This document shows, piece by piece, positions 59,748-64,000 of a stretch of 64,000 bases of DNA. Source of the stretch: Acidimicrobiaceae bacterium (GTDB lineage Bacteria; Actinomycetota; Acidimicrobiia; Acidimicrobiales; RAAP-2); contig DAIDKS010000015.1 in NCBI GenBank assembly GCA_027449885.1, positions 1 to 64,000 on the forward strand, in the 5' to 3' direction. A program made the translations under genes and the position numbers. The notes under the pieces are model-generated. The model saw nothing but the letters and a program-made list of their open reading frames with translations, was not told the DNA's origin and did no database searches. Every line of letters starts with the position of its first letter. The stretch's first letter is position 1.

Positions 59748-59817
59748 TCGATGTGTGGCTCAGCTGGGCTCGCGAGCGCGGTTGTGTCCTGCCAAGTCGG
59801 TCAGAGAGGAGCCAACG

Positions 59818-61266
59818 ATGGAGTGTTGCACGACAGAAGCGAGTGAGGGTGGCGCGAGTACGTTGCGGCGCAAGGAGTACGACCTTGCGATCGTCGGGTC
59901 GGGAAGCGCCGCCTTTGGGACGGCAATCGCCGCGACGCGAGCTGGAGCATCGGTCGTCATGATCGAGCAAGGTCTCGTTGGTGGTACCTGCGTGAACGTC
60001 GGGTGCGTCCCGTCAAAGGCCCTGCTGGCAGCGGCCGAAGCGCGCCACGTCGCTCTCGCCGGGCAGTTTCCTGGCATCACCACGGATGCCCTCGGTGTGG
60101 ACATGCCAGCGCTCATCGCGGGCAAGGACTCGCTTGTCAACATGCTGCGTCACGAGAAGTACGAGAACCTTGCCGAACTCTACGGCTTTGACATCCTCCA
60201 CGGACACGGCCACTTCAGCGCAGACGACACCTTGACGGTAGACGGGGTCACGGTCGCTGCAGGTCACTACATCATTGCCACCGGCGCAGCACCCTGGGCA
60301 CCCCCCATACCGGGCCTTGACAAGGCCAACTACCTGACCTCGACGACGGCGATGGAACTGGACCACGTACCGGAGTCGCTCATCGTCATCGGAGGTAACG
60401 CCATCGGCCTTGAGCAGGGGCAACTCTTCGCGCGCCTCGGTGCGCAGGTCACCATCGTCGAGGCACAGTCGCGAATCGCGCCGTTCGAGGAGCCCGAGGT
60501 GTCGGATGCGCTCACGAGCATCTTCGAAGACGACGGGCTTGCGGTTGAGGTGGGTGTGACCGTAACGAAGTTGTTCCAGGAAAACGGAACGGTTACCGTC
60601 GAGATCGACACTCCGCACGGGTCACGATCGCTTCGTGCTGAAGCCCTCCTCGTGGCGACCGGTCGCCGTCCGAACACGGAAGGTCTTGGACTCGACGTTG
60701 TGGGCGTCCGTGTCGGATCGCGTGGCGAGGTCATCGTGGACGACGAACTGCGTACGACGAATCCGCGCATCTTCGCAGCCGGGGACGTCACGGGACATCC
60801 CCAGTTTGTCTATGTGGCGGGCGTCCACGGCGGGATCGTCGCTGACAATGCCCTGACAGGCGCGAGTCGCCGCGTGGACTACCGGACGCTCCCGAGGGTC
60901 ACCTTCACGTCGCCCCAGATCGCGTCCGTCGGCATGACGGACGAGGAGGCCGAGCGTAGTGGCATCTCCTGCGAATGCCGGGTGCTCCAGCTGACTCATG
61001 TGCCGCGAGCCATCGTCAACCGAGATACGCGAGGTGTCGCGAAGATCGTCGCCGAGCGGGGTACGGGTCGCGTCCTCGGCATCCACCTGCTCGCCGACGG
61101 CGCGGGGGACGCCATCCTGGCTGGTGTCTACGCCCTGGAGGCGAACTTCACCGTCGACCAGCTCGCTACCATGTGGACGCCTTACTTGACGATGTCGGAG
61201 GCGATCAAGCTCACCGCGCAGTCGTTTTCCAGGGACGTTGCTGCGCTGTCGTGTTGCGCGGCTTAA
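59818..61266 (+). CDS. merA: mercuric reductase
   Basis: The 482-residue flavoenzyme reduces Hg(II) to Hg(0) with NADPH. FAD site LAIVGSGSAAFGTAIAATRAG, redox pair Cys58-Cys63 in GGTCVNVGCVPSK, and the C-terminal vicinal Cys479-Cys480 (LSCCAA) that deliver Hg are all present. YLTMSEAIKL is the usual pre-C-terminal segment. The N-terminal metallochaperone domain (NmerA) is absent, as in several actinobacterial MerAs, but MECC at the N-terminus gives an extra vicinal pair. Start ATG has GAGAGGAGCC. Confidence 0.94.
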   Translation: MECCTTEASEGGASTLRRKEYDLAIVGSGSAAFGTAIAATRAGASVVMIEQGLVGGTCVNVGCVPSKALLAAAEARHVALAGQFPGITTDALGVDMPALIAGKDSLVNMLRHEKYENLAELYGFDILHGHGHFSADDTLTVDGVTVAAGHYIIATGAAPWAPPIPGLDKANYLTSTTAMELDHVPESLIVIGGNAIGLEQGQLFARLGAQVTIVEAQSRIAPFEEPEVSDALTSIFEDDGLAVEVGVTVTKLFQENGTVTVEIDTPHGSRSLRAEALLVATGRRPNTEGLGLDVVGVRVGSRGEVIVDDELRTTNPRIFAAGDVTGHPQFVYVAGVHGGIVADNALTGASRRVDYRTLPRVTFTSPQIASVGMTDEEAERSGISCECRVLQLTHVPRAIVNRDTRGVAKIVAERGTGRVLGIHLLADGAGDAILAGVYALEANFTVDQLATMWTPYLTMSEAIKLTAQSFSRDVAALSCCAA

Positions 61267-61994: not shown

Positions 61995-63710
61995 CTAGTG
62001 GTGGACCGTGGCCAGCTCGACAACGCGCACCACGACGAGCCCGAAGGCCACCAAGAGGTAGCCGCGCAGCACGACCAGGCCCACGCGCACGCCAGGAGTG
62101 AGCTGGGCCCGCTCGAGCAGCGTTGAGCGCGGCATGCGCCACGTGAGTCTCTCTTCGCGCGTGGAGTCAGCGGCGGGTCCCCGCGCCTTGGGTCGGGCGA
62201 CGAGCGTGACGCCGAAGCCCGCCAGAACGCCCAGCGCGCCACCGCCGAGCAGGATATCCAGGATCTGCGCGCTCGAGAGGTGGCTGAAGAGCACGCTGGC
62301 GGTCAGGATCAGCGAGAGGGTGATGAGGATCCAGATGACCCCGGCCGTGAAGACGTTCTTGGCGCGCGAGTTGACCCAGGGACCCAGCACGTCGCGATCG
62401 TTGCACAAGAGCAGGAGGAACACCGTCGCGCTGGGAAGCAGGACGCCGGCCAGGGTCTGCACCCCCTCGGTCAGCAGGCCCAGGGGCATGTGGGGCGCGA
62501 GCACCAGCGCCGCGGAGAGCGCGATAAGGGCCCCATAGGTGGCGTAGAAGCCCTTGGCGCTGCCAACCGAGCGGTGCAGCGAGTGGTTCTGGCCCGTCAC
62601 GTCAGCGGCCGCGTAGGCGGTGGACAGTCCCACGGCGGCCGCACCGATCATCGAGGCGTCCAGCAGGGCGATGGCAAAGAGGACGCCCACCAGGTGCCCG
62701 GCGTGGCGGGCCAGCCCGGCCGCGACGTCGGCTGCGTTGGTGAAGTGGCCCTGTGCGCCCGTGTGGGCGAACGCGGCCGCGGTGAAGCCGAACATCGCCG
62801 CGGCGCCCACCACGACGATCACGATTCCCAGCCAGAGGTCGACGCGCTCGTAGCGCATGAAGGCCGGCGTGATGCGCTTGTCGATGACGTAGGACTGCTG
62901 GAAGAACAGCTGCCAGGGGGCGACGGTCGTGCCCACGATGGCAATGATGAGAAGCATCGCGCTGGAGAGCGGCGCGTGCGCGGGCATGCCGGGCACGAGC
63001 AGTCCGTGCAGCACCGTCGAGGCTCGCGGGTGCACGAGCAGGAAGATGGGGATCAGCAGGAGTGAACCGGCCACGAGCGCCATGGCGATGCGCTCGAAAC
63101 GGCGAAACGAGCCAGTGGAGGCCGAGCCGATGATCACCGCGGCGGCCAGCGCCACCGTCAGTATCTTGGGGATCCCGAGGTACCCGGCCGCCAGGGACAC
63201 GCCGATGAACTCGGTGACGATCGTGAGCGCATTGAGGACGAAGAGGTCGATGACGCTGAAGGATCCCCAGAAGCGCCCGAAGCGCTCGAGGATGAGCCGG
63301 GCGTGCCCGACACCCGTGACGGCGCCCAGGCGCAGCACCATCTCCTGGTTGACGTAGAGCACAGGCACCAGGAGCAAGAGCGTCCACAGCAGGCGCACGC
63401 CGTAGTTCTGACCGGCTTGGGTGTAGGTGGAAAAGGCGCCGGCGTCGTTGTCGCCGACCATGACGATGAGCCCGGGCCCGATCACCGCCAGCAGTGTCTT
63501 GAGGTGGCTGGACCAGGTACGCGGCCCCGGTGACTCGTGCGCGGGGATCGTGCCGAAGGCGCCCTTGATGTCGCCGAGGTGGGCCGGGTCGAGCACGGCC
63601 GACTCGCGTGTCGGGGCGTGCTCGCCCGAGGCCGGGCAGGTCGAAGAGGAGTGTGCGCGGTTGGGGCGAGCGGGGCTGAGCACGCGCGCGTCGGTGCGGT
63701 TACGGGCCAT
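61995..63710 (-). CDS. NRAMP-like divalent metal transporter with altered metal-site motifs
   Basis: The 571-residue protein has a long hydrophilic N-terminus and then about eleven helices. Helix 1 reads GPGLIVMVGDNDAGAF, so the DPGN metal motif is DNDAG (Asp87-Gly91). In helix 6 the MPH motif is APW (TTVAPWQLFFQQS). The Met that favours transition metals is absent. NRAMP-related magnesium transporters (NRMT) also lack that Met, so a Mg2+ or other hard-metal substrate is possible. I preferred the ATG at 63710, with AAGGA spaced 7 bases, over an earlier M at 63839 without a ribosome site. Confidence 0.82.
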   Translation of the reverse strand: MARNRTDARVLSPARPNRAHSSSTCPASGEHAPTRESAVLDPAHLGDIKGAFGTIPAHESPGPRTWSSHLKTLLAVIGPGLIVMVGDNDAGAFSTYTQAGQNYGVRLLWTLLLLVPVLYVNQEMVLRLGAVTGVGHARLILERFGRFWGSFSVIDLFVLNALTIVTEFIGVSLAAGYLGIPKILTVALAAAVIIGSASTGSFRRFERIAMALVAGSLLLIPIFLLVHPRASTVLHGLLVPGMPAHAPLSSAMLLIIAIVGTTVAPWQLFFQQSYVIDKRITPAFMRYERVDLWLGIVIVVVGAAAMFGFTAAAFAHTGAQGHFTNAADVAAGLARHAGHLVGVLFAIALLDASMIGAAAVGLSTAYAAADVTGQNHSLHRSVGSAKGFYATYGALIALSAALVLAPHMPLGLLTEGVQTLAGVLLPSATVFLLLLCNDRDVLGPWVNSRAKNVFTAGVIWILITLSLILTASVLFSHLSSAQILDILLGGGALGVLAGFGVTLVARPKARGPAADSTREERLTWRMPRSTLLERAQLTPGVRVGLVVLRGYLLVAFGLVVVRVVELATVHH

Positions 63711-63796
63711 TGGAGTGTCCTTGGGGTGGGGTGCGTGGGGCTGGTCGGTACGTGACTCAGCGCCGGCAGACCCAAGGGAATCGGGCTCGTCGAGGA

Positions 63797-63862
63797 CTAG
63801 AGCAGACGGGATTCCGGGGTCATCATGCCGACGCTCCATCTACTCGGGGGCTCAGTGCGCAT
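63797..63862 (-). CDS. 21-codon leader ORF upstream of the NRAMP-like gene
   Basis: On the minus strand, TAAGGAGGTGATC precedes an ATG at 63862. It is complementary to twelve consecutive bases at the 3' end of 16S rRNA. The 21-codon ORF begins MRTEPP, has a second Met-Met-Thr-Pro-Glu and ends at TAG 87 bases before the NRAMP ATG. It is not in frame with the transporter. Acidic-proline starts are the signature of magnesium-sensing leader peptides (MgtL). Function is inferred only. Confidence 0.55.
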   Translation of the reverse strand: MRTEPPSRWSVGMMTPESRLL

Positions 63863-63900
63863 GATCACCTCCTTAGCGTTTCCACAATGCATGCTACCAA

Positions 63901-63916
63901 ACAGGATCCGTCCTGT
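63901..63916. promoter_or_regulatory. inverted repeat upstream of the leader ORF
   Basis: ACAGGATCCGTCCTGT is a 6-bp perfect dyad around TCCG, 39 bases before the leader ATG. It could be a repressor operator for the transporter or a transcript hairpin. From 63917 to the window edge no complete gene is visible, only a short open frame from an ATG at 63943 running off the end. Confidence 0.4.
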
Positions 63917-64000
63917 CGCAGCGGGGCAGTACGGTCGACGCGATGTCCCCATTCATGCCGACCTGCGACGCTCGAGCCAAGTGCGCCCGCGGGCGATGCG

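Follow-up and report, generated by a model that had tools for sequence, protein, structure and literature searches.

Leader ORF and transporter gene in the window

The window, the whole 64,000-nucleotide stretch analysed here, comprises positions 1–64000 of the 64396-base contig C15, from an assembly of 1.98 Mb that is 84% complete. Near its end, the minus strand carries a short leader ORF with its own Shine-Dalgarno (SD) sequence and, behind it, an NRAMP-related (NRMT-type) transporter gene (Table 1). Read on that strand, the leader region runs TAAGGAGGTGATC-ATG CGC ACT GAG CCC CCG AGT AGA TGG AGC ... CTC TAG, and 86 nt separate the leader stop (63797) from the ATG of the transporter gene (63710). 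A mercury(II) reductase-like gene (59755–61266, plus strand; NCBIfam MerA, E 4e-176) lies convergent with the NRMT gene, and no CBS-domain partner was seen between these two genes in the window.

Table 1. Features of the leader and transporter locus in the window.
Feature	Position	Strand	Basis
-35-like hexamer GCGACA, 17 nt ahead of the -10-like hexamer; putative promoter	63914..63919	-	p=0.09, window alone
-10-like hexamer TAGCAT, ending 28 nt before the leader start	63891..63896	-	promoter scoring
Leader Shine-Dalgarno TAAGGAGGTGATC, abutting the ATG at 63862	63863..63875	-	sequence reading
Leader ORF MRTEPPSRWSVGMMTPESRLL, 21 codons, TAG stop at 63797	63797..63862	-	ORF reading and relatives
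Leader codons 4–7, Glu-Pro-Pro-Ser (GAG CCC CCG AGT), conserved core	63842..63853	-	leader comparison
Leader-side strand AGCGTCGGCA, codons 10–13, of a predicted 10-bp stem	63826..63835	-	fold prediction
Candidate anti-SD CCTTGGG, could pair with CCCAAGG over the NRMT SD	63771..63777	-	fold prediction
Post-stop strand TGCCGGCGCT, predicted to pair with codons 10–13	63759..63768	-	fold prediction
NRMT ribosome-binding site CCCAAGGA, core AAGGA	63718..63725	-	sequence reading
NRAMP-related (NRMT-type) transporter gene	61995..63710	-	Pfam Nramp E 1.4e-74; EleNRMT nearest solved relative

A preliminary description of this DNA had placed an NRAMP-like gene after the leader, and the Pfam Nramp match, obtained with the longer open frame 61995–63839, agrees with that assignment. 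A profile built from 17 relatives matched EleNRMT (7qia), an NRAMP-family Mg2+ transporter of solved structure, best (E 1.3e-80), followed by chain 10ky (2.3e-29), whereas MntH-named entries in the same search scored 6.3e-18 or weaker; this ruled out a Mn2+ NRAMP identity and placed the gene in the NRMT type. The NRMT motifs, as given in passages of PMC8806188, are TxxA/T without the soft Met ligand in helix 6 and DxxG in helix 1. Helix 6 of the window gene reads GTTVAPW, with the T-T-x-A-P-W columns invariant in all 17 aligned rows, and has the NRMT form without the Met of Mn/Fe transporters (TTVAPW). Helix 1 deviates from DxxG, reading NDAGA (DxxA) in the window, L004 and L005 and NDAGG in the other 14 of the 17 rows; the NDAGA variant sits next to the metal site. 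Magnesium transport by an NRMT-type gene is named in the title of Shin et al. 2014 (PMC4072509). The metal is likely Mg2+ and not Mn2+, because the nearest solved relative is EleNRMT, an M-box riboswitch occurs in 41 of 98 distinct related NRMT loci (a selected set and no random sample), and the sister gene described below has an MgtE_N-CBS neighbour. By homology, the window gene is a probable NRAMP-related magnesium importer.

The reported 21-codon ORF starting MRTEPP was found before this gene, and its near-perfect SD was confirmed as well: AAGGAGGTGATC is a 12-nt perfect match to the complement of the bacterial 16S tail, the longest such match in the window. The 14-nt 16S end used as reference had no match in the 84%-complete assembly. 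The further statement that the site is far stronger than any other proved overstated, since another minus-strand site (start 55013) matches over 11 nt and the leader ranks 21st of the 3944 start codons in the window by duplex energy, a measure computed without the 3 nt adjoining the start codon. Twenty random order-2 Markov windows held a mean of 11.8 starts of equal strength per window; chance could thus account for the SD taken by itself.

Unlike the SD alone, the conservation of the leader is, judged on sequence, beyond chance. When the 49 leader regions were mononucleotide-shuffled 20 times over, the combination of an SD, NTG, one to three codons and Pro-Pro-Ser never appeared (0 of 49 each time), and a search of the window's assembly with a similar motif pattern matched two NRMT leaders only. 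These results bear on a chance ORF under a strong SD, or a misannotated NRMT start, as the explanation. The supply of strong SD-like sites in random windows and the overlap of the NRMT frame with the leader (open to 63839, inside it) speak for such an origin; the conservation across families and the empty shuffled regions make it hardly credible, and no SD was seen by eye before 63839. A frame-shift into the NRMT frame was also considered and dropped, with TAG standing directly before the ATG at 63839.

Leaders of the window type in relatives

NRMT genes were taken from two overlapping listings of 61 and 397 genomes. Eight NRMT genes, counting the window's own, share 65% identity or more with it, and a Pro-Pro-Ser (PPS) leader with a strong SD precedes seven of them; the ORF is thus kept in most of the relatives whose comparison had been proposed as a check. 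The seven loci are the window (MRTEPPSRWSVG, starting MRTEPPSRW), L004 of the same genus (MRTEPPSRWSAG), L005 (VRQPPSTWRSP), L161 (MKSDPPSTWRL), L162 (VLSQPPSTRRSP), L163 (MKLEPPSTWRSP) and L165 (LRSEPPSNWPLR); no PPS leader was found at the eighth, L164. An IQ-TREE tree of 51 NRMT rows chosen by hand united the eight genes with L063 (leader MNSEPPSPWRSP) and L064 (LKPPSTRP) in one clade (support 99/97), in which nine of ten rows carry a PPS leader. More distant NRMTs have MRTEPSSPRRS (L151) and VRSQPPNTTLL (L168).

The window-type set used below (n = 10) consists of the seven loci together with L063, L151 and L168, leaving out L064. Immediately ahead of Pro, seven of these leaders have E or D, one of them as E-P-S, and three have Q; Trp follows the core in seven, and the start codon is ATG, GTG or TTG. 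Across codons 2–10, the window and L004 differ at three positions, all synonymous, which would arise by chance with p of about 0.009. L004 also has a second small ORF (MTRPHTSPRSVHRRPARA...), noticed by eye about 90 nt past the leader stop, whose TGA overlaps the candidate NRMT ATG and suggests translational coupling.

A sister set of KPPS leaders

A second set, comprising 39 distinct [L/M]KPPS leaders that are mostly CUG-started, precedes a second NRMT gene of family f1. The gene order, both in the window's genus and in one adjacent genus of that family, is an MgtE_N-CBS gene, an [L/M]-K-P-P-S-T leader and the NRMT gene. The first gene was identified by Pfam in L010 (32–1291, plus strand; E 7.7e-19 for MgtE_N and 1.2e-17 for CBS) and by eye in the other loci. 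The L010 protein had no membrane-domain match in Pfam; MgtE_N and CBS form the cytosolic portion of MgtE, a Mg2+ channel, and the protein, encoded directly ahead of the KPPS leader and NRMT, is a possible Mg2+-sensing partner of the transporter. PPS leaders occur in 29 of the 31 loci L002–L032 (L003 being the window), with none at L006 and L009. L064 has the only KPPS leader noticed outside family f1. Five exact-motif matches fell outside this family (L033–L036 and L052, the last with an unrelated ORF); they may be due to chance, as backwards-pattern controls gave six.

The wider leader search demanded an NTG start and an SD, which makes these features partly a matter of construction there; likewise, a DNA pattern fixing TGAAR, Pro-Pro and AGT had been used to fetch the loci of 12 of the 39 KPPS leaders. 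When the start codon was left unrestricted, the codon before Lys-Pro-Pro was CTG in 22 cases, ATG in two and TTG in one (25/25 NTG). Thirty-six of the 39 KPPS leaders have CUG at the start position (e.g. L010:1329), where AUG and UUG stand in the others; from this register with the AUG and UUG forms we infer a CUG start, which is unusual, and the set could possibly serve as a natural collection of CUG-initiated ORFs.

All 39 KPPS leaders keep frame 0 open over 16 or more codons, against 0 and 13 for the other two frames, and the stop is TAG in 30. Over codons 2–6, 81% of pairwise differences fall in third positions; over codons 7–25, compared in 23 leaders of 78 nt, no position is preferred (31/37/32%). 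Only the first codons are conserved, and leader lengths range from 15 to 32 aa. On sequence grounds, this pattern is that of a leader peptide whose beginning matters, and the existence of a translated, conserved leader is very likely. A peptide acting in trans, as a small regulatory protein of the transporter, has been proposed for uORF2 behind mycobacterial M-boxes (Rv1805A; PMC12810186, in the passages covered). For the present leaders such a role is very improbable, given that conservation stops after the first 6–11 residues, the C-terminal remainder changes with no codon bias (23 leaders) and lengths vary.

The preliminary description had singled out an acidic-proline start. This was borne out only in part: an acidic or amide residue precedes Pro in the window-type leaders, E or D in most of them, and no leader of the KPPS set has an acidic residue (0/39). 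Because of this absence, the conserved core is, by leader comparison, Pro-Pro-Ser(AGU) and not an acidic-proline run.

Codon-level constraint on the core

Codon use was compared in 49 leaders, namely the 39 KPPS leaders and the ten window-type leaders, five of which (L161, L162, L163, L165 and L168) were added by hand; repeated peptides were dropped, as were L052, L074 and L076, which are not NRMT leaders. Behind Pro-Pro, 48 of the 49 encode Ser as AGT and the remaining one has AAT (Asn), although AGT makes up only 8.5% of the Ser codons in these loci's NRMT genes. For the first Pro, CCC or CCT is again used in 48/49, versus 46% of Pro codons in these genes, and the second Pro is free. Leaving aside the 12 pattern-fetched loci, both counts are 36/37. 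The invariance of AGT is, at the level of sequence, beyond what peptide function alone explains, and together with the first-Pro preference it suggests a codon or nucleotide constraint that the best explanation given below does not need.

Such a preference would be expected if the codons themselves were sensed: the tRNA that reads the first Pro codon, CCC/CCU, needs the m1G37 methyl group made by the Mg2+-dependent TrmD, and slow reading at low Mg2+ would be detected rather than nascent-chain instability. A TrmD model of this kind exists for the mgtA leader (PMC6335274, in the sections covered). We nevertheless regard a codon-read sensor as unlikely, for it leaves the invariant AGT, the E/D/Q residue and the Trp unexplained, and CCC may have been kept otherwise, for instance through complementarity to the SD, in sequences that are related.

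Upstream region and M-box search

Promoter scoring of nine window-type leaders found best promoter-like pairs that end 28–53 nt before the leaders. Their p values were below 0.05 in four of the nine, namely L004 (p 0.02; TATCCT 30 nt ahead of its leader), L005 (p 0.003; TTGACG-N17-TATACT), L161 (p 0.013) and L162 (p 0.003); they did not reach this level in the window (GCGACA-N17-TAGCAT, 0.09), L163, L165, L063 and L151. The putative window promoter would give a 5' UTR of about 21 nt. If used, these promoters would leave no space for a 169-nt aptamer before the leader.

A covariance-model scan for the M-box (RF00380) gave no hit at gathering score in the window, nor in any of the 15 PPS-leader loci scanned (L003, L004, L005, L007, L008, L010, L026, L063, L064, L151, L161, L162, L163, L165 and L168). 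In Streptomyces and Arthrobacter, among others, the M-box (ykoK) is found at this position ahead of NRMT genes; it differs from the leader in being a structured aptamer of about 169 nt.

Predicted RNA structures

The fold predicted for the window joins leader codons 10–18 to the post-stop segment in a pairing that encloses the stop codon. The counterpart of the 10-bp stem in L004 has AGCGCCGGCA facing TGTCGGCGCT, with a G-U pair at a different position. Relative to shuffled post-stop sequences, the leader:post-stop pairing had a mean z of -1.35 and was negative in nine of the ten window-type leaders, falling below -2 in three (window -3.75, L163 -3.14 and L162 -2.6); the mean z in the KPPS set was -0.42. 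Pairing between the candidate anti-SD and the NRMT SD in the window did not exceed shuffles (z -1.43, p 0.10). Sequestration of the NRMT SD as a general switch was rejected on the same ground (mean z -0.23 in the ten window-type and -0.45 in the 39 KPPS leaders). A strand switch in the KPPS leaders between codons 14–16 (CAAC) and an GTGGTTGT hairpin was also unconvincing, with a mean z of -0.54 over the 23 leaders that have the second strand (16 negative) and no such strand in 11 of 34.

When ribosomes were modelled on the RNA, a ribosome at PPS in the window gave an NRMT SD openness of 0.53, and one at the stop gave 0.37; across the window-type set, a ribosome at PPS produced no trend (four up and two down of ten). 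In the KPPS set, a ribosome at the stop opened the NRMT SD in 29 of 39 leaders, with an openness of 0.53 at the leader stop versus 0.33–0.35 further upstream on the leader. The gain at the stop exceeded that of shuffled sequences in 30 of 34 (Wilcoxon p 5e-6, the sequences being related). Masks 6–12 nt past the stop opened the site equally (0.50 and 0.53), so that the stop itself is not singled out. On these models, the sign of control may differ between the window-type and KPPS sets.

The opening of the NRMT SD by a KPPS ribosome at or just past the stop would fit an element that works by coupling or RNA structure only. A ribosome near the leader stop would then keep the NRMT site open, and the conservation of GGGGG...CCCCC-N-AGTACC would partly reflect RNA, as an SD-Pro codon hairpin, with no metal sensing by the peptide. 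The invariant AGT and two consensus hairpins in alignment A3 (columns 11–31 and 119–142) point the same way. Covariation, in contrast, is slight: 3 of 21 pairs show a double change, one of them (127–134) in the 119–142 hairpin and none in the 11–31 hairpin, and the term contributes only -0.46 of -22.45 kcal/mol, so covariation was rejected as support. Moreover, the SD:Pro hairpin is mismatched in the window (GGAGG vs CCCCC), and the window-type leaders keep amino-acid classes (E/D/Q, R/K and W) despite differing RNA. We judge an element of coupling or RNA alone to be improbable, about as much so as the codon-read sensor. In the post-leader spacers C outnumbers G (mean skew of +0.14 and +0.16), a bias that could resemble a Rho site and is given no weight here.

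Comparison with known systems and proposed mechanism

Leader peptides that couple ribosomes to Mg2+ transporter genes have been detailed in enterobacteria (mgtL, mgtP and mgtQ). According to the covered parts of the respective papers, ribosomes drop off at EPDP of mgtL at low Mg2+ and the RNA refolds (PMC11282234), EF-P acts on mgtL (PMC6460261, PMC11611912), TrmD/m1G37 is linked to its CC[C/U] codons (PMC6335274), and acidic codons near the start of mgtQ (Asp2/Glu5) free the mgtB ribosome site (PMC8092293).

The window leader resembles mgtL (Salmonella/E. coli, mgtA leader) in being a short ORF with a strong SD in the 5' leader of a Mg2+ importer, assigned as such by homology only, in having an acidic residue and Pro near its start, and in the alternative RNA structures that would be expected. 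It differs in its consecutive Pro-Pro-Ser, its NRMT-type transporter and a mechanism that is proposed only, where mgtL has EPDP with interspersed prolines, the P-type ATPase MgtA and reported Rho-dependent termination. No sequence relation was found between mgtL and the window leader. Of the mgtL-type analogue suggested in the preliminary description, what persists is a conserved leader ORF before a likely Mg2+ transporter gene, with both the peptide and the transporter being different. Likenesses to mgtQ (Salmonella, between mgtC and mgtB) are the very short ORF and, as predicted here, the overlap of its codons with alternative stem-loops and the action on translation of a Mg2+ transporter, and its place within an operon resembles that of the KPPS leaders between the MgtE_N-CBS gene and NRMT. 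Conversely, mgtQ has eight codons and needs Asp2/Glu5 rather than Pro, while the present core is Pro-Pro, the KPPS leaders are without an acidic residue, and the predicted sign of KPPS control is opposite to that of mgtQ.

An actinobacterial parallel, compared by its published description, is uORF2/Rv1805A of the mycobacterial M-box. In the passages covered, D'Halluin et al. (PMC12810186) report that mycobacterial M-boxes are followed by a conserved uORF, mycobacteria-specific by their account and of unknown function. Like our leaders, it is a small ORF with a conserved N-terminus, proline and SD, and its Mg2+-controlled leader with competing SD/anti-SD segments may have a counterpart here; an M-box precedes it and PE/PPE genes follow, whereas the window has an NRMT gene and no M-box match. 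PPS leaders may bear on this unexplained uORF. In the text covered, a 50-genome survey for new RNA motifs (PMC11109978) shows no Mg2+ uORF, and no description of PPS leaders before NRMT was found in the titles, abstract beginnings or passages of the open-licence literature.

Overall, the comparisons are best explained, with a probability of about 0.5, by a leader peptide that controls the magnesium importer gene in cis as an mgtL/mgtQ-like switch. In the window organism and several relatives, the leader is probably a ribosome-read switch for Mg2+ uptake that replaces the usual RNA switch. That it acts in cis on NRMT is likely, and Mg2+ is the somewhat favoured signal; pausing or drop-off at Pro-Pro as the sensor is a tentative proposal made by analogy.

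The cis-acting leader peptide would work as follows. A transcript from the putative upstream promoter would start about 20 nt before the leader, and the very strong ribosome site would load ribosomes onto the 21-codon ORF. Within the conserved N-terminus, (R/K)-x-(E/D/Q)-Pro-Pro-Ser(AGU)-x-Trp, ribosomes would pause or drop off at Pro-Pro-Ser with a frequency set by Mg2+, through ribosome stability, EF-P or m1G37-tRNA-Pro activity. The position of the ribosome would then decide whether codons 10–18 pair with the post-stop segment, and with it the translation of the NRMT mRNA or its further transcription. If this is true, the same Mg2+ problem has been solved with a different peptide and transporter in Actinobacteria, in which relatives use an M-box at the same place.

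Distribution and leaders of other Actinobacteria

PPS leaders were present in 5 of 25 NRMT loci in L161–L185, in 8 of the 19 examined loci of L141–L160 and in 2 of 80 in L061–L140. By these counts, PPS leaders characterise family f1 and the clade to which the window belongs; they are not a general feature of NRMT genes. A different feature emerged elsewhere: among 80 named NRMT loci, 29 have a strong-SD uORF with PG[HD], GHS, SGDS or DGH near its start, against 0–1 in five shuffled controls. One of the 29 (L085) looks like a chance match, and 22 of them have an M-box. Examples are MDCSSPGHSCPYPRMPSHTSGTR of Streptomyces, behind an M-box, and MNPGHSCPPSDLPSSP of Cellulomonas without one (chromosome L061 and plasmid L188). 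Conserved strong-SD leaders stand upstream of NRMT in L066, L067, L074, L088, L061 and L091. Those of Streptomyces and Kitasatospora read M-D-x-S-S-P-G-H-S-x-P and in most cases follow an M-box; those of Cellulomonas and a Micrococcales MAG read MxPGHSCPP and have no M-box ahead of them. At the sequence level, other orders have a leader peptide of different sequence before NRMT, with or without an M-box. Near the NRMT locus of L081, a second M-box lies on the opposite strand (L081:964–1141, minus strand).

It is conceivable, though doubtful, that the PPS leaders of the window's order and the Pro-Gly-His/Asp-Ser leaders elsewhere are all ribosome-based Mg2+ sensors of actinobacterial NRMT importers, alone or behind an M-box, with ribosome and riboswitch interchangeable or stacked. 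The leaders offer natural experiments on the Mg2+ sensitivity of ribosomes, occurring with and without an M-box, with AUG, GUG, UUG and CUG starts and with E, D, Q or no acidic residue.

Of the 37 same-genus genomes searched, the window's own included, two (G000 and G021) carry the window-type gene. Related genes occur in other families of the order and, with other leaders, on plasmids of other Actinobacteria, and leader and gene may travel together. A scan of viral contigs returned two distant NRAMP-like loci (39% identity), which were left out of the counts. On the plasmids L188–L191 (Cellulomonas, Pseudarthrobacter, Arthrobacter and Leifsonia), two of which were typed as conjugative, NRMT is followed by a CBS-domain gene.
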